Assembly: GCA_946405645.1 (NCBI GenBank)
Contig: CAMJHW010000019.1
Location: forward strand, 1 to 16,119
Source: an uncultured Bacteroidales bacterium
GTDB lineage: Bacteria > Bacteroidota > Bacteroidia > Bacteroidales > UBA932
Length of the DNA: 16,119 nt
Direction: 5' to 3'
Shown here: in pieces, positions 1 to 10,027 of the stretch
Layout: each line of letters starts with the position of its first letter
Numbering within the stretch: the first letter of the stretch is position 1
Translations under genes and position numbers: made by a program
Notes under the pieces: generated by a model
The model's input: the letters and a program-made list of their open reading frames with translations, nothing else
Told to the model about the DNA's origin: nothing
Databases searched by the model: none

Positions 1-1
1 G

Positions 2-100
2 TAGGCAGCTGCCGTTCTTTGAAGGTCCGACTGGAAATCCAGCCGGACCTTTTTGTGTTCCGTCCCTTCGGCCCGGGACCCTTCGAACGGCAGCTGCCTA
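2..100. repeat. Nested inverted repeat with 16-bp perfect arms
   Basis: Positions 2-17 and 85-100 are perfect reverse complements over 16 bases, and each arm contains the 10-base palindrome GGCAGCTGCC (4-13 and 89-98). Two further hairpins sit between the arms: 22-51, which looks like a terminator, and 62-79 (GTCCC pairing with GGGAC). The whole can fold as a three-way junction. This is read directly from the bases. Whether it is a transcribed structure, a degraded small mobile element, or the 3' end of an upstream unit outside the window cannot be decided here. Confidence 0.75.
22..55 (+). terminator. Rho-independent terminator of an upstream unit
   Basis: Positions 22-34 pair with 39-51 over 13 positions with a single A-C mismatch (30/43) and an AAAT loop. 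The 3' arm runs into T residues (50-54). This is a classical intrinsic terminator on the plus strand, presumably ending a gene that lies left of the window. Confidence 0.8.
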
Positions 101-122
101 TGTTTTCCTACCCCACACCAAA

Positions 123-161
123 CCCCTCCCGTGGGAGGGGAGCAGTCGCTTCGCTCCGACT
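123..161. repeat. Two small adjacent hairpins
   Basis: Positions 123-130 (CCCCTCCC) pair perfectly with 133-140 (GGGAGGGG) around a two-base centre. Immediately after, 144-148 (AGTCG) pairs with 157-161 (CGACT). Neither is followed by a clean T-run, although the polypyrimidine tract begins at once. They may be intergenic palindromes of the REP type; the family is not identified. Confidence 0.55.
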
Positions 162-281
162 CTTCCTTTCTCCTTTCTTCTTCCCTTTTTCCTTCTCCCT
201 TCTCCCTTCTCCCTCCCTTTTTTCCTCATCACTCCTTCCGAGTCCGTTTTCCCTCCTTCCTTTCTTATCCTTTCTTCTCCC
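160..281. other. Polypyrimidine tract
   Basis: The plus strand is almost purely C and T, with an uninterrupted 68-base pyrimidine run at 160-227. Three exact tandem copies of CCTTCTC lie at 191-211. Open frames here give only Ser/Phe/Pro/Leu-rich translations that follow from the composition, so the tract is treated as non-coding. Such tracts can form triplex (H-DNA) structures; that is a general property of the class and is not shown here. Confidence 0.8.
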
Positions 282-414
282 CCGGGCCTGTTTCCGTCGT
301 TTTTAGGCCTGGATGAGTAGTTCTTCCTCCTCCTGGGCCTGATTTTCCTGTTTTCAGGCCAGGCACGGTCGTTCTCCTTCCATCCGGGCCCATTTCTGCC
401 ATTTTCAGTCCCGG
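282..414. repeat. Tandem hairpin array, block 1 (three 51-bp units)
   Basis: Three units repeat at a 51-base period: hairpins of about 31 bases at 282-312, 333-363 and 384-414, separated by 20-base spacers (313-332, 364-383). The first stem pairs 282-289 with 305-312, including one G-T wobble. The second pairs 332-341 with 355-363 with one bulged G. The third keeps CCGGG/CCCGG at its ends. Stems are of the GGGCC type and the loops share a TTTC-G-C-TTTT pattern. No T-run follows the units. Units are diverged, which suggests an old array. Confidence 0.75.
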
Positions 415-457
415 TGAGCTAAGTTTCTCCGTATAGACGGGGTAATTTACTAGCTGT

Positions 458-589
458 CCGTGCGAGTTTCGGCTTTTTTCCCGCACGGATCAGGCAATTC
501 TGTGTAATCGGTGCGAGATTTGGCCATTTTACGCACGGATTAGACGATATTGCGATAACGGTGCGGGAATCGGCCATTTTCTCGCACGG
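458..589. repeat. Tandem hairpin array, block 2 (three 50/51-bp units)
   Basis: The hairpins at 458-488, 509-538 and 559-589 repeat at 51 and 50 bases with 20-base spacers (489-508, 539-558) that are about 60 percent identical to each other. Stems are of the GTGCG/CGCAC type: the first has seven perfect pairs (458-464 with 482-488), and the others have six pairs with one G-G mismatch. Loops carry TTTCGGC-TTTT or TTGGCCATTTT, resembling the loops of block 1 although the stems differ. A partial, poorly folding segment (435-457) joins the two blocks. The spacers are related to each other, unlike CRISPR spacers. Confidence 0.8.
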
Positions 590-617
590 GTGACTGAAGG
601 ATGTGGGGAAAGTGTTA

Positions 618-684
618 CATCCTTCTACTATGGGTCGAAGGATGAGGTAAAAATGGCGTACCCTTCTACCACGGGTCGAAGGGT
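618..684. repeat. Two covarying palindromic repeats
   Basis: Copy 1 pairs 618-625 (CATCCTTC) with 637-644 (GAAGGATG). Copy 2 pairs 660-666 (ACCCTTC) with 678-684 (GAAGGGT). Both enclose an 11-base loop differing at only two positions. The A-T to C-G exchange in the stem is compensated on the other arm. On the minus strand, copy 2 is followed a few bases later by five T residues (654-650), so it might help end the exporter transcript at 818; the spacing is imperfect for an intrinsic terminator. Confidence 0.7.
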
Positions 685-685
685 G

Positions 686-816
686 TGGTGGGGGAAAGCA
701 AGAAGGGGGCAGAGGAGAGGTAGAGAAGCGGAGAAGTTGAGAACGGGAAAAAAGGAGAAAGTAGGAGAGAGAAAGGAAGAAGGGGGAGAAGGGGAGGAAA
801 GGAGGAGCAAGGGAGG
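686..816. other. Polypurine tract
   Basis: The plus strand is nearly all A and G, with an uninterrupted purine run of 45 bases at 763-807. It ends two bases before the stop codon of the exporter gene. Its composition is complementary to the polypyrimidine tract at 160-281, so a transcript spanning the region could in principle pair over long range. No exact long complementarity was found by eye. An open plus-strand frame through this tract and the next gene is rejected as an antisense shadow. Confidence 0.75.
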
Positions 817-817
817 T

Positions 818-1438
818 TTAGGGGGTGACGATGCCCTTGTAGACGAGGATGGCGCCGAAGATGAAGATGGCGATGGCGGCGATGCGGTTGATCAGGAAGA
901 GCAGCTTGAAATTGAAGCGGTCACCGAAGTGGGCGGCAATCCTGGAGAAGCAGTACCAGTAGCAGGCGGAGCCGGCTGCCAGTGCGGCTATGGCGGCGAA
1001 TGGTATCCATCCTGGAGTTCCGCTCATGTCCATCTTGAAGAAGGCGAACAGGGCAAGCATGACGGCCAGGGCGGCGGGGTTGGAGAGCCCCATGGTGAAC
1101 GCCTTGATGAAGTTCTTGGCGGAGTAGGGGCGCTTGCGCCTGCTCTTGGGGATATGACTGCGGAACATGTTGAATCCCACGAACATTACGAAGAGTCCAC
1201 CGACGATTTCTATGACCGAAGTGTGTGCCCGGACGTAGTCCCCGATGGAAGACAGGGCGAACGCGGAAATGATGGCGCACAGGGTATCCACCGCCGTACC
1301 GCCGAGTCCGCAGGAGAAACCGGCCTTGCGGCCGTCGCTGACGGATTTCTGGATGGTGAGCATCATGATGGGTCCGACCGGTATCGCAGCGATGATGCCG
1401 ATCAGGAAACCTTTGAGTATGAAAATCAGATCCGTCAA
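818..1438 (-). CDS. LysE/RhtB-family amino-acid exporter
   Basis: Predicted inner-membrane exporter of 206 residues, a usual length for the LysE/RhtB superfamily, which expels amino acids or related metabolites. The N-terminal helix leads into the family-type segment IPVGPIMMLTIQKSVSDGRK, followed by GLGGTAVDTLCA. Further hydrophobic segments follow, with a basic cytoplasmic stretch (SRRKRP) before GLSNPAALAVMLALFAFF, a family-typical Asn-Pro. The frame is open back to a TTG at 1474, but a promoter -7 box lies at 1462-1469. The TTG at 1438 is therefore chosen; it follows an AAGGA element on the minus strand. The substrate cannot be told from sequence. The gene is divergent from the DUF4861-like gene and ends beside the polypurine tract. 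Confidence 0.87.
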   Translation of the reverse strand: MTDLIFILKGFLIGIIAAIPVGPIMMLTIQKSVSDGRKAGFSCGLGGTAVDTLCAIISAFALSSIGDYVRAHTSVIEIVGGLFVMFVGFNMFRSHIPKSRRKRPYSAKNFIKAFTMGLSNPAALAVMLALFAFFKMDMSGTPGWIPFAAIAALAAGSACYWYCFSRIAAHFGDRFNFKLLFLINRIAAIAIFIFGAILVYKGIVTP

Positions 1439-1461
1439 TGCCTGTCCTTTGAAAGCGGTTG

Positions 1462-1492
1462 CAAAGGTATGCAATAATGTCGGATTATCAAT
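1462..1492 (-). promoter_or_regulatory. Bacteroidetes-type promoter for the exporter gene
   Basis: On the minus strand, TACCTTTG (1469-1462) matches the Bacteroidetes -7 consensus TAnnTTTG. An ATTG (1492-1489) lies 19 bases upstream, close to the -33 TTTG. Transcription would begin near 1456, downstream of the more distal TTG, which supports the shorter start at 1438. Confidence 0.6.
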
Positions 1493-1509
1493 GTTTCCGG
1501 CAGTTTGAT

Positions 1510-1517
1510 TATCTTTG
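1510..1517 (+). promoter_or_regulatory. -7 box for the DUF4861-like gene
   Basis: TATCTTTG matches TAnnTTTG and lies 20 bases before the ATG at 1538, implying a short leader. No good -33 TTTG is seen at the usual distance. It is divergent from the exporter promoter, with about 40 bases between the two -7 boxes. Confidence 0.5.
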
Positions 1518-1537
1518 TGAACACTAGTTGATACAAA

Positions 1538-2395
1538 ATGAGAACAATACGTCAGATAGTGCTCGCGGCCTGCATGCTGGCTTCCCTGGAAGCCGGCGCG
1601 CAGACGGCCCGCAGCCTCTTCATGCGCTCCGATTCCCTGGAGGTCCCCGAGATCGTTTCACCTGAGCCGGTCATCTACAACAAGGTCGGCCACCATGGCC
1701 CTGCGGTGGAGAATTACGCTTCCGCTTTCAGGCTGTATTTCAACAATAGCGGCGCGATAGATGTCTATTCCAAGTCCGGCAAGCAGATGGAGCTTGAAAA
1801 GTATCTATGGTACCCGACCGAAGAGCAGCAGGCCACGGAAGGTGCCGGCTGCGATGAGTACATGGTCGGCAAGACTGTCGGTCTCGGCGGCATAGCCTTG
1901 TGGGACGGGGAAAATGAGGTCAAGCTCGAGGCGGAGCGGCGCACCGGGCGCGTCGGCGCCACGCGCCGCGGCTCCTACGCCGAAATCATCGCCTACGGTG
2001 TCCCGTACATGGGCGAAAAAGTCGATATCGCAATGCGCATCGACGTCAAGGACCGTTCCAGGATTGCCAAGGTGACGGCCTGGGAGTTGAATGGCAGGAA
2101 AGTGCGATTCCTGACAGGCGTCAATTATCACCCCGGCCATACGGTCGGGATGGAGCGGCGCGGCAGGCTCTGGACCTGGGGCACACATCCTGCGGATGTC
2201 TCCCAGGCCCCGATCCCCCTCGGCGCCGCCATTTTCTTCCGCCCCTGCCGTTTCAACGCACCGGAGAAGACCGGCGATATGCTGCGTATCATCTCCAAAC
2301 CCTGCCGCCGCATCAAGACGCGCATACTGGCGGCTTCCACTAAAGAAGAAGAGTTGGGAACGCTGGAAAGATTCAAGGAGTTCGTAGAGAAATAG
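1538..2395 (+). CDS. Secreted DUF4861-like protein
   Basis: A 285-residue protein with an N-terminal signal peptide (hydrophobic core IVLAACMLASLEAG, probable cleavage after AGA or AQT near residue 21), so periplasmic or exported. The body resembles DUF4861 proteins of Bacteroidetes: a segment VENYASAFRLYFNNSGAIDV, then a Trp/Tyr-rich part (EKYLWYP), and YMVGKTVGLGGIALW followed by a beta-rich half. DUF4861 proteins often sit near polysaccharide lyases and unsaturated glucuronyl hydrolases, suggesting a role in uronic-acid glycan use, but no such enzyme lies nearby here. It is shorter than the longer members recalled for the family. The function is not established, and the family call rests on recognition by eye without a search. 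Confidence 0.65.
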   Translation: MRTIRQIVLAACMLASLEAGAQTARSLFMRSDSLEVPEIVSPEPVIYNKVGHHGPAVENYASAFRLYFNNSGAIDVYSKSGKQMELEKYLWYPTEEQQATEGAGCDEYMVGKTVGLGGIALWDGENEVKLEAERRTGRVGATRRGSYAEIIAYGVPYMGEKVDIAMRIDVKDRSRIAKVTAWELNGRKVRFLTGVNYHPGHTVGMERRGRLWTWGTHPADVSQAPIPLGAAIFFRPCRFNAPEKTGDMLRIISKPCRRIKTRILAASTKEEELGTLERFKEFVEK

Positions 2396-3486: not shown

Positions 3487-5010
<1,524 letters not shown>

Positions 5011-5014
5011 GGAG

Positions 5015-5254
5015 ATGAAACTGGTCGTACTCTCTCCCGAAAGGGAGCTGCTGAACTGTGAGGTCACGGCTGTCGAGGTGCCGGGGGCCGCGGGCCGTTT
5101 CATGGTCTGGCCCGGCCACGCCCCGCTCCTCAGCTCTCTGCAGGAAGGATTCGTCCGCTACGACCCCGTCGACAGCAATGCCCGCGAAAAGCTCCCCATC
5201 AGCGGCGGTTTCGTCGAAATCATCAACGATGAGATAACGGTATGCGTGGGATAA
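5015..5254 (+). CDS. atpC: F1Fo ATP synthase subunit epsilon (short form)
   Basis: Epsilon subunit of the central stalk, which couples gamma to the c-ring. It has only 79 residues, against about 135-140 for E. coli. It holds the N-terminal beta-sandwich (MKLVVLSPERELLNCEVTAVEVPGAAGRF in part, WPGHAPLLSSL, ISGGFVEI) and lacks the C-terminal two-helix domain that inhibits ATP hydrolysis in other bacteria. Short epsilon subunits are usual in Bacteroidetes. The start follows the atpD stop by four bases with GGAG just upstream. The last 13 bases overlap the start of atpB, which suggests translational coupling. Confidence 0.96.
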   Translation: MKLVVLSPERELLNCEVTAVEVPGAAGRFMVWPGHAPLLSSLQEGFVRYDPVDSNAREKLPISGGFVEIINDEITVCVG

Positions 5255-6270
5255 GGTTCATATTGACGGTTCTCTTTATGGCTTTCGCCTCCGTCCCCTT
5301 GGGCGCGGAGGAGCTGGACATGAACGAGTATCTGTTCGGCCACGTAGGAGACTCCTACGAGTGGCACATCACCACCGTCAACGGACATCCCATCAGCATC
5401 TCCCTTCCGGTCATCGTACGCAGCAAGACTTCCGGGTGGCATGTCTTCAGCTCGAAACACCTCGAAGAGGGCGAGCATGAAGGCTTCTATATCTCTTCAA
5501 GTGAGAAATACAATGGCAAGATCGTCGAGCGCGGCCCCTCCGGCGAGGAGGTCAGGCCGCTCGACATTTCCATCACCAAGAACGTCGCAGGACTGATGTT
5601 CAACAGCGCCTTGCTGGTGCTTATCGTGCTTCTTACTGCCAGGTGGTACAAGAAGCACGATGCCCGCGAAGAAGCCCCGAGAGGCTTCGCGGGCGTAATG
5701 GAAATGATGATCACCATGGTCGAGGACGACATCATCAAGGAGTGCATAGGCAAGGAATACAAACGTTATTCGCCGTACTTGCTGACGGCCTTCTTCTTCA
5801 TCTTCGTCAACAACTTGATGGGCATAGTCCCGTTCTTCCCCGGCGGCGCCAACATTACGGGCAACATCGCCGTCACTTTCGTGCTGGCGATGTGCACCTT
5901 CCTCGCCGTGAACCTTTTCGGAAACAAGCATTACTATAAGGATATCTTCTGGCCCGATGTGCCTTTGTTCCTGAAAGTGATCCCGTTGATGCCTCTCATC
6001 GAGATCATCGGCCTGTTCACCAAGCCCTTCAGCCTTATGATACGACTTTTCGCCAACATCCTTGCGGGACATGTCATGCTCCTGGGAGTGGTGGCGGTCG
6101 TGTTCCTTACTGCGAAGCTCGGCTTTGCTATGAATGCGGGCCTGAGCGCGATTTCGGTCTTGTTCGGAGTTTTCCTTGACATCCTGGAGCTGCTCGTGGC
6201 TTTCCTCCAGGCCTATGTGTTTACCATGCTTTCGGCTGTATTCATAGGACTCAGCCGGCAGGGAGATTGA
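5242..6270 (+). CDS. atpB: F1Fo ATP synthase subunit a
   Basis: Membrane stator subunit forming the two half-channels for protons, 342 residues. An N-terminal signal-like segment (residues 5-22, ending GAEE) and a polar region (about 23-112) precede the five or six membrane helices, a layout typical of Bacteroidetes subunit a. Key motifs: the essential stator Arg at 268 in KPFSLMIRLFANILAGH, the Asn-rich NITGN near 204-208, and ELLVAFLQAYVFTML with Gln 323 in the last helices. Its ATG lies inside the end of atpC. No small atpI-like gene lies between atpC and atpB, unlike the arrangement recalled for some Bacteroides. Confidence 0.98.
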   Translation: MRGIRFILTVLFMAFASVPLGAEELDMNEYLFGHVGDSYEWHITTVNGHPISISLPVIVRSKTSGWHVFSSKHLEEGEHEGFYISSSEKYNGKIVERGPSGEEVRPLDISITKNVAGLMFNSALLVLIVLLTARWYKKHDAREEAPRGFAGVMEMMITMVEDDIIKECIGKEYKRYSPYLLTAFFFIFVNNLMGIVPFFPGGANITGNIAVTFVLAMCTFLAVNLFGNKHYYKDIFWPDVPLFLKVIPLMPLIEIIGLFTKPFSLMIRLFANILAGHVMLLGVVAVVFLTAKLGFAMNAGLSAISVLFGVFLDILELLVAFLQAYVFTMLSAVFIGLSRQGD

Positions 6271-6296
6271 TAATGACAACCAAAAAACGATAAGTT

Positions 6297-6551
6297 ATGT
6301 TCCTTTCAATGATTCTTCAGGCAGCCGCAGGTGCTGCATTAGGAAAAGCCGGAGCGGCCATTGGCGCCGCAGTCGCCGCTTTCGCTGCCGCCGTCGGTAT
6401 CGGTATGATCGGTAAGGCATCCCTTGAGGCCGGTGCCCGTCAGCCAGAGCAGGCCGGTCATTACCGTATGACCGCCATCATCATCGGCGCCCTCGTCGAG
6501 GGTGCCTGTCTGTTCGCAATCCTCGTTTGCCTCATCGGTATCAACAACTAA
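6297..6551 (+). CDS. atpE: F1Fo ATP synthase subunit c
   Basis: Ring-forming proteolipid, 84 residues, with two membrane helices joined by the polar loop ARQPEQ (47-52) that contacts gamma and epsilon. The first helix is Gly/Ala-rich (GIGMIG), and the ion-carrying carboxylate is Glu 68 in GALVEGACLF. The residues after it are Gly-Ala where sodium-type c subunits have Ser-Thr, and the TM1 position that carries Gln in sodium types is Ile 35. This suggests proton rather than sodium use, inferred by alignment to the Ilyobacter tartaricus c ring from memory. The 26-base gap to atpB has no strong ribosome-binding site; an internal Met at residue 5 is possible but less likely. Confidence 0.97.
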   Translation: MFLSMILQAAAGAALGKAGAAIGAAVAAFAAAVGIGMIGKASLEAGARQPEQAGHYRMTAIIIGALVEGACLFAILVCLIGINN

Positions 6552-6557
6552 CGCGAC

Positions 6558-7064
6558 ATGTCCCTCGTAACACCCGATTTCGGTCTTCTTGTCTGGATGA
6601 CGCTCATCTTCGCCATCGTGTTCTTCGTGCTGGCGAAATGGGGCTTTCCGGCCATTACCGGAATGGTGGACAAGCGCTCCGACCGTATTGAAGAGAGCAT
6701 AGCCAAGGCCCGTGAGGCCGAGAAGATGCTCTCCGAGATGGAGGCGCGCCACGCTGCGATGATCGAGGAGACCAGGGCTGAGCAGGCCCGCATCCTTAGG
6801 GAAGCCTCCCAGGCCCGCGACGCCATGGTCAGCCAGGCGAAGCAGCAGGCTCAGGACGAGGCCACCAAGCTCCTCGAACATGCCAGGACGCAGATCGCGG
6901 CGGAAAAGGAAAGCGCTCTCAAGGAAATCCGTTGCCAGGTAGCCGCGCTGTCGGTGGACGTGGCGGAGAAGATCCTCAGGGAAAAGCTTTCAGACACTAA
7001 GACACAGATCGACCTCGCTACCCGCATGGTTGACGAGGTGACCAGGAACGACAATCCAAGTTAA
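6558..7064 (+). CDS. atpF: F1Fo ATP synthase subunit b
   Basis: Peripheral-stalk subunit of 168 residues. One membrane helix at about residues 9-28 (LLVWMTLIFAIVFFVLAKW) is followed by a long charged helix rich in Glu, Ala, Arg and Lys (about 36-160). This is the dimerising coiled coil that holds F1 against the membrane and binds delta at its end. The length is typical (about 156-170). The ATG lies six bases after the atpE stop and the gene ends three bases before atpH. Only one b gene is present, so a homodimer is expected. Confidence 0.97.
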   Translation: MSLVTPDFGLLVWMTLIFAIVFFVLAKWGFPAITGMVDKRSDRIEESIAKAREAEKMLSEMEARHAAMIEETRAEQARILREASQARDAMVSQAKQQAQDEATKLLEHARTQIAAEKESALKEIRCQVAALSVDVAEKILREKLSDTKTQIDLATRMVDEVTRNDNPS

Positions 7065-7067
7065 GTC

Positions 7068-7544
7068 ATGAACACGGGCATCATCTCCTCGCGTTACGCC
7101 AAAGCCTTGCTCCGGCTGGTCGATGAGACCGGCAACGGAGATGCCGTGTACGCCCAGGTCCTTCAGATCCTGAAGGAACCGGATTCGATGCCCGGCAGGC
7201 TTGAACCGGAGATTTCCCGTCTGGTTACACTTTTGGTCACGAACAACAGGATCAGCCATGTCAAGTTCATCCTGCATCGTTTCATAGAGATGTACAATGC
7301 CTCCAGGGGCAGGCACGTGGCGATGCTGAAAACGGCCGTGCCTTCACCCGAGCTTGAGAAACGGATCAAGGACCTGCTGCAGGACAAGCTCGGCGGCGAG
7401 ATCATCCTGCATACCGAGACCGATCCTTCCATCATCGGAGGGTTCAGGCTGAACGTCGATGACAGACTGCTGGATGCGAGCGTGTCCAGCCAGCTGGAGG
7501 AGATACGCCGTCAGCTGATAGACAAGAACAGAAGAATAGTTTAG
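7068..7544 (+). CDS. atpH: F1Fo ATP synthase subunit delta
   Basis: Delta subunit linking the top of F1 (alpha N-termini) to the b stalk. It has 158 residues, about 20 shorter than the usual 175-180. The N-terminal helical domain starts with the family-typical [15 protein letters not shown], and the C-terminal part has the [22 protein letters not shown] pattern, close to the conserved (D)xxLIGGxxxxxGDxxxDxS signature of the family. The shortening falls in the middle of the N-terminal helical domain. It sits three bases after atpF and two before atpA. Confidence 0.95.
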
Positions 7545-7546
7545 AA

Positions 7547-9130
<1,584 letters not shown>

Positions 9131-9139
9131 CATTTAACC

Positions 9140-10027
9140 ATGGCATCGCTCAAGGAGACAAAAGGACGCATCGCTTCCGTCAAGAGTACGCTGAAGATCA
9201 CTTCAGCGATGAAGATGGTGGCCTCCGCCAAGCTTCACAAAGCCCAGAACGCCATCGGAAGCATGCTCCCGTATGAGCGCAAGCTCCGCGAGATGCTGCA
9301 GTTGCTGCTCAGCTCCGTAGCTAGTCAGATTGTTCCCTCGGAGCAGAACGCTTCAAGGGATGATGTGCCGGCCGGAAAGGCAAAGCGTGTGGCGATAGTG
9401 GCGATCGCATCCAATTCTTCATTGTGCGGAGGGTTCAACGGCAATGTCTTACGCGAAGTCAAGTCCCGAGTACATTCCTTGGAGGTGGATGGCTGCGAAG
9501 TTGAAGTGATCTCCGTCGGAAAGAAAGTGTCCGATCCTCTGCGCAAGGCGGGATATCCTTCTCCGGATGATTGGAACGAACTTGTCGGCCACCCTTCCTA
9601 TGCGACGGCCGATGCTTTGGCCAAGAAACTGCAGAAGGGCTTCAGTGAAGGGAAATATGACCGTGTCGAACTGATATACAATCATTTCGTATCGACGGGT
9701 ACGCAAAAAGTCACGTGTGATACCTATCTGCCGATGGCGCCACTGTCGGCCGAAGGCGTATCGCGTGAATGGCCGGAAGATCTCATCATCGAGCCTTCGG
9801 CCGAGGAGATGCTCGCGGACCTGCTTCCGCGCGTCCGCTCGCTCCGCATCTATACGGTCATCCTGGACAGCGTCGCAGCCGAACATGCCGCCCGTACCAT
9901 CGCCATGCAAACGGCGACGGACAATGGAGAGAATATTCTTCAGGAACTTACCCTCGAATACAATAAGGGCCGCCAGCAGAAGATCACCAGTGAGATCCTC
10001 GACATCGTCGGCGGCTCCATGCAGTAA
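9140..10027 (+). CDS. atpG: F1Fo ATP synthase subunit gamma
   Basis: Central rotor shaft of F1, 295 residues, a typical length. The N-terminal helix has the family pattern KGRIASVKSTLKITSAMKMVASAKL, and the C-terminal helix ends RTIAMQTATDNGENILQELT with LEYNKGRQQKITSEILDIVGG, the strongly conserved shaft contact (compare NKARQAxITxELxEIVxGA in other gammas). The middle is the more variable Rossmann-like domain. It is the last gene of the operon. Its stop codon (10025-10027) directly touches the stop of the convergent protease, and no intrinsic terminator with a T-run lies after it, so transcripts may run into the antisense of the next gene. Confidence 0.98.
   Translation: MASLKETKGRIASVKSTLKITSAMKMVASAKLHKAQNAIGSMLPYERKLREMLQLLLSSVASQIVPSEQNASRDDVPAGKAKRVAIVAIASNSSLCGGFNGNVLREVKSRVHSLEVDGCEVEVISVGKKVSDPLRKAGYPSPDDWNELVGHPSYATADALAKKLQKGFSEGKYDRVELIYNHFVSTGTQKVTCDTYLPMAPLSAEGVSREWPEDLIIEPSAEEMLADLLPRVRSLRIYTVILDSVAAEHAARTIAMQTATDNGENILQELTLEYNKGRQQKITSEILDIVGGSMQ

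Follow-up and report, generated by a model that had tools for sequence, protein, structure and literature searches.

We identified two blocks of regularly spaced DNA hairpins near the start of a 16,119-nt stretch of an uncultured Bacteroidales bacterium (assembly GCA_946405645.1, contig CAMJHW010000019.1, forward strand; hereafter the window). We read both blocks as arrays of repetitive extragenic palindromic (REP) elements of a REP-associated tyrosine transposase (RAYT) system, the enzyme being of the Y1-type HUH kind, and put the probability of this reading at about 0.88. It is based on several lines of evidence. First, RAYT-like genes with the same hairpin on either side were found in related genomes, the stems of these hairpins follow the RAYT lineage, and the structural model of one such protein has a RAYT fold. 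In addition, block 2 shows homology to the sequences flanking that protein's gene (locus L067 of genome G002), copies of its hairpin are scattered over G002, and a fixed distance of 51 nt recurs. A preliminary description made from the window sequence had listed REP or bacterial interspersed mosaic element (BIME) repeats with a RAYT among several possible roles; it is this option that the flanking hairpins, lineage-specific stems, fold and spacing support.

Block 1 (283-415) has a GGGCC-type stem and block 2 (457-590) a GTGCG stem (Table 1). Read from the window sequence, the hairpin centres lie at about 298, 349 and 400.5 in block 1 and at about 473, 524 and 574.5 in block 2. The centre-to-centre spacings are thus 51 and 51.5 nt in block 1 and 51 and 50.5 nt in block 2, where one unit is short by a base. 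Tandem Repeats Finder (TRF) called both arrays, with period 51 at 272-390 and period 50 at 460-589. When hairpins were required to have perfect 5-nt arms and a loop of 13-18 nt, a scan recovered five of the six, a number reached in 1 of 2000 dinucleotide shuffles; none of the shuffles (0/2000) gave three hairpins sharing an arm, or three intervals of 49-53 nt. The six-hairpin array is real and its regularity is above chance. DNA folding of 270-700, which includes a third array treated below, gave z = -6.9. The six hairpins, the period of about 51 nt and the two stem types of the preliminary description were thereby borne out by reading, TRF and shuffles. The blocks also have the same spacing, as claimed, but they are out of common register, since the gap between them measures 72.5 nt from centre to centre. 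A loop pattern said to be common to both blocks is present as a loose likeness. Ungapped identity between units was 0.43-0.65 within blocks and 0.27-0.49 between blocks, with overlapping ranges. A CRISPR array, with near-identical repeats and unrelated spacers, was rejected on the 43-65% identity within blocks; the preliminary description had also held that it is not CRISPR, since spacers within block 2 resemble each other. No T-run was read after the hairpins, which agrees with its statement that the units carry no terminator-like T-run of their own.

G002 is one of four metagenome-assembled Bacteroidales with relatives of the LysE-type translocator gene (lysE) beside the arrays (69-81% identity). 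Two of these four come, by name, from yak and sheep omasum, and the RUG designations of the other two stand for rumen genomes; the window most likely stems from a rumen Bacteroidales too. Gene L067 of G002 encodes a 321-aa protein and carries GTGCG hairpins of the block 2 type in both flanks. Block 2 matched these flanks at E 1.2e-8, and the next-best locus at E 0.038. Judged by this homology, it is well supported that block 2 is the REP array of a RAYT lineage like L067. The GTGCG-type hairpins were then sought in 80 genomes with stricter filters and up to 80 candidates scored per genome. In G002 they occupied 21 dispersed places across 7 contigs, counted regardless of intergenic position; 15 of these, like both places in G003, had been input to the search model. 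Beyond the input, the places comprised 6 in G002, 1 in G004 and 1 weak one in G062.

The predicted structure of L067 had the REP-associated tyrosine transposase 4er8 as its best match in a fold search, and the model is consistent with the Y1/HUH fold of a REP/RAYT protein. A PDB sequence search gave nothing significant (best E 0.35), so the structural link to RAYTs comes from the fold search. RAYT-related genes were present in 77/149 genomes of the family. The RAYT profile A1 had 12 matches in G002 and also matched in 3/3 of the other lysE-relatives, and Y1_Tnp matches above the Pfam cut-off occurred in 4/4, partly from another RAYT-like class; the preliminary description had looked to a RAYT-type gene in the same genomes for support, and these four contain one. 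Proteins of the L067 class are about 280-330 aa long (length filter 270-335). Set A3 comprised 40 of the 72 proteins passing the filters; HxH and the catalytic Tyr were invariant in these 40 members, which had been picked by [ND]HxH and in some cases also by Y..N[PG]. L067 itself has W157-G158 and Y138-x-x-x-N142. PF01797 was matched at E<=0.01 by 5/40 members. Among the 120 L067 homologues listed, none had a precomputed Pfam domain and 14 were named, 12 as 'hypothetical protein' and 2 as 'REP element-mobilizing transposase RayT'. By reading, L061, L062, L063 and L066 (G002/G003) form another RAYT-like class with IMFNHVH, whose flanks have inverted repeats that are long and imperfect in place of short hairpins.

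We compared the hairpin arms in the two flanks of RAYT loci. In the first set, freed of duplicates and of L130, L132, L133, L134 and L135 (these had a fragmentary frame, belonged to another class or were poorly called genes), an identical 7-nt arm occurred in both flanks of 29/67 loci. The controls gave 35/5402 for wrong-partner pairs and 1/247 for control open reading frames (ORFs), counted on a 74-locus set with three duplicates (L117, L120, L142) still in and L123 and L134 left out (contig ends). A held-out set of 40 further RAYT loci was taken without a check for closeness to the first; an arm common to both flanks was found in 18 of the 38 with enough flank on both sides. By a looser measure, at least two hairpins with one 6-nt arm were present in the flanks of 50/83 loci, a set in which the gene was found in 28/39 new loci and re-fetched loci were removed. 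Finally, arms were shared by 12/25 RAYT pairs with at least 60% identity, 11/272 at 45-60% and 10/2049 below 45%. Stems track the RAYT lineage and pairing is kept between lineages, although the between-lineage hairpins were picked by pairing and are therefore no independent covariation test.

The distance between neighbouring hairpins with the same arm was strikingly uniform. All 54 such intervals below 99 nt in the set of 83 loci were 48-53 nt; of the longer ones, 16 were 99-104 nt, near double the distance, and one was 111-113. The 40 held-out loci gave 51 intervals of exactly 51 nt, three of 52, two of 70 and nine of 102-104, so that 51/56 intervals below 99 nt were exactly 51, intervals inside one array not being independent. 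Counted by locus, a 49-54 spacing was found in 21 of these 83 (any interval in 26/83) and 15/40 of the held-out set (any interval in 18/40), compared with 0/212 control ORFs, which yielded two intervals of 102 nt. The 23 loci with the 51-nt spacing carry 23 distinct arms, which indicates that the distance is kept and the stem sequence is not. Loop conservation was weak (GGC or GCC in 43/96 loops vs a shuffled mean of 27). In the flanks of L098 and L099, two loop types tend to alternate, giving a 102-nt double unit. A full-text search on RAYT/REP and hairpin repeats found no earlier report of a 51-nt rule in the openly available text that it covered.

Several results weigh against the REP/RAYT reading. 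The 16 kb of the window contain no RAYT, the RAYTs considered here being known from relatives' genomes, and searches of Pfam and NCBIfam with the L067 protein gave no match at E<=1. With 21 GTGCG places in G002 the copy number is low, and G003 has two GTGCG hairpins and no near L067 orthologue in its assembly (best 39%). The canonical GT[AG]G foot was found in just 1/22 GTGCG units. Covariation within the GTGCG family was unsupported: across 20 units the core stem was invariant, partly because the search pattern demanded it, and pairing measures were at or below shuffle level. A reversed-sequence null was unfit, a reversed hairpin still being a hairpin, and was not used. The covariation proposed as a check in the preliminary description thus drew no support from these units, and its claim that the stem changes with pairing kept was not borne out within the family. 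Sharing of an arm by both flanks was absent in 38/67 first-set loci (7 nt) and 20/38 held-out loci, and no measurable spacing was present in 57/83 loci and 22/40 held-out loci. Block 1 lacks a convincing homologue in RAYT flanks, the best match, to L114, covering 19 nt (E 0.010).

By its spacing and kind, block 1 is probably the REP array of a second RAYT lineage, and the two stems are best read as two RAYT lineages and not as one drifting family. A DNA search with block 1 gave weak matches in 5/149 genomes. G004 has a RAYT, L129, with GGGCC-stem hairpins on both sides, and another GGGCC-type array besides. The array by L129 agrees with block 1 in the GGGCC core and resembles it in spacing, yet the two have no BLAST homology; since this core is short and partly self-complementary, the likeness is a lead only. 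Unlikely, but with some points in its favour, is that both blocks instead come from a single RAYT lineage and that its REPs underwent a change of stem: the blocks share a spacing class and have loosely similar loops, and block 1 has no cognate by homology. Nevertheless, stems track the RAYT lineage, a genome can hold many RAYT-like genes, as the 12 matches in G002 illustrate, and L129 has GGGCC hairpins on both sides, even if these match block 1 in the stem core only.

We also considered an RNA structure selected at gene 3' ends for termination or mRNA end protection, with an incidental link to the transposase. The array lies between the converging 3' ends of the rrn and lysE genes, the region folds better than shuffles, and such roles have been hypothesised for REPs in the accessible text of PMC3733652. 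However, the hairpins are not followed by a T-run on reading, covariation is missing inside the GTGCG family, and the same hairpin stands on either side of RAYT genes, all of which makes this improbable. Rfam covariance models had no match at E<=1 in window 1-2000, including the 5S stretch, and a known Rfam RNA family was rejected on this basis. Terminators were likewise rejected; the terminator scan was empty in the arrays, though with loops of 3-8 only it is blind to long loops. Even less probable is that unrelated intergenic hairpins simply duplicated in tandem, independently of any transposase, and that their loops and spacing are alike by drift or chance. Within-block identity of just 43-65% would suit old duplications, but the 51-nt distance recurs with different stems in the RAYT flanks of many genomes and in 0/212 controls, and block-2-type hairpins are scattered across G002. 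A short repeat-bearing protein can be dismissed almost entirely: a period of 51 nt corresponds to 17 codons, and an open minus-strand frame of 73 aa spans 265-486 and repeats every 17 residues across block 1, but a coding repeat was rejected: Pfam has no match, the 50-nt unit in block 2 breaks the frame, and RAYT flanks show the same spacing with different stems.

Under the REP/RAYT reading, the RAYT (TnpA_REP) would recognise single-stranded DNA hairpins, nick and join them, so that hairpins could spread without carrying the gene. RAYT lineages are paired with stem sequences of their own. The cutting and transfer of strands would be performed by the RAYT, and the copies in the window may have been mobilised in trans. 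If the enzyme handled two neighbouring hairpins together, the 51-nt distance could result, and we infer that the enzyme itself may set it; another route to the same distance would be an inherited period, the stems having been swapped by concerted replacement. More broadly, we propose tentatively, at somewhat less than even odds, that a large and mostly unannotated long-RAYT clade of Bacteroidales handles hairpin pairs at a protein-set 51 nt. What the enzyme reads would be the distance together with some of the loop, leaving the stem free to vary by lineage, so that different REP families share one array and period.

Table 1. Hairpins, arrays and neighbouring genes at the start of the window.
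Feature	Position	Strand	Remarks
Block 1 hairpin 1	283-312	.	GGGCC-type stem; perfect-arm scan match
Block 1 hairpin 2	332-363	.	GGGCC-type stem; perfect-arm scan match
Block 1 hairpin 3	384-415	.	GGGCC-type, imperfect; missed by perfect-arm scan
Block 2 hairpin 1	457-489	.	GTGCG stem; perfect-arm scan match; homology to L067 flanks
Block 2 hairpin 2	509-539	.	GTGCG stem; perfect-arm scan match; homology to L067 flanks
Block 2 hairpin 3	559-590	.	GTGCG stem; perfect-arm scan match; homology to L067 flanks
Third array	596-688	.	period 41 (TRF); stem CATCCTTC/GAAGGATG
LysE-type translocator gene	818-1474	-	PF01810, E 7.5e-21; 3' end faces arrays
5S rRNA gene last bases and terminator-like hairpin	1-57	+	read by comparison with L003/L004

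The third array is likely REP-like, by its kind. Its hairpins have the form CATCCTTC-(11 nt)-GAAGGATG, the loop being GACCnnnGGT-like, and the array matches the 3' region of L001 (E 4.6e-5), which has a similar hairpin in the equivalent region. By reading, L058, a G004 RAYT of another class, has CATCCTTCGGG hairpins in its flanks about 42 nt apart.

On the other side of the arrays, a 5S rRNA gene follows the equivalent region in L003 and L004, and the first bases of the window match its end on reading; with the 3' end of lysE, this places the arrays between two converging 3' ends. The content of the region varies among the relatives, with GTGCG hairpins in L002 and L003 and CCTTCGG-type hairpins in L001 and L004 (reading). 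Window 1-105 has an inverted repeat, GGCAGCTGCCGTTC / GAACGGCAGCTGCC, around the terminator-like hairpin at the 5S end, and pieces resembling it were read near the 5S gene in L003. Pyrimidine-rich and purine-rich tracts at 160-280 and 690-815, partly mutual inverted repeats, bracket the arrays. Further on, 3499-10027 holds what we take, from the ORF list, to be ATP synthase genes in the order beta, epsilon, a, c, b, delta, alpha, gamma.

These findings bear on the choice of hairpins by RAYTs. Because many natural enzyme-repeat pairs combine one exact spacing with differing stems, it becomes directly testable whether the enzyme reads distance, loop or stem, and how new REP families originate. 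In the accessible text of PMC8266576, which treats RAYT recognition in three proteobacterial pairs, two group 3 RAYTs strictly require loop positions, which the E. coli RAYT does not. The long-RAYT clade has been mostly missed by Pfam, with 5/40 members matching PF01797, and according to the available part of PMC6006769 the proteins studied there were gathered with the Pfam Y1_Tnp profile.

The system resembles REP/BIME/REPIN elements with a RAYT in its short palindromes, its several stem families, the gene flanked by its own repeat and the fold nearest to 4er8; that each tnpA_REP has its own REP family is also stated in the text seen of PMC6006769. The class nevertheless departs from canonical REPs. 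It has no GTAG foot (the GTGCG family lacks GT[AG]G), its long RAYTs (about 280-330 aa) are mostly missed by Pfam, a 51-nt spacing is common across lineages, the loops are longer (11-17 nt searched) and the copy number is low. In the same portion of PMC6006769, GT[AG]G is also absent for subclasses 2.6 and 3, and TnpA_Y1 subclass 2.6 (RAYT group 5) is likewise found in Bacteroidetes and bordered by secondary structures that are atypical and lack GT[AG]G. Subclass 2.6 is, however, described there with a median of 179 aa, WQ and YIH[QN]NP, and L067, at 321 aa with WG and Y-x-x-x-N, has none of these features. A long protein with a C-terminal extension is also a feature of the TIRYT-like TnpA_Y1 subclass 2.1, which that text reports without REP-like sequences near the genes, whereas here hairpin arrays flank many genes. 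Finally, ordered tandem REPs at fixed distances are known from Pseudomonas fluorescens SBW25, as far as the text consulted of PMC3116915 goes; those form 71/110 bp doublets with a 72/112 bp alternation in one genome, whereas here a single 51-nt distance is combined with many stem families in many genomes.
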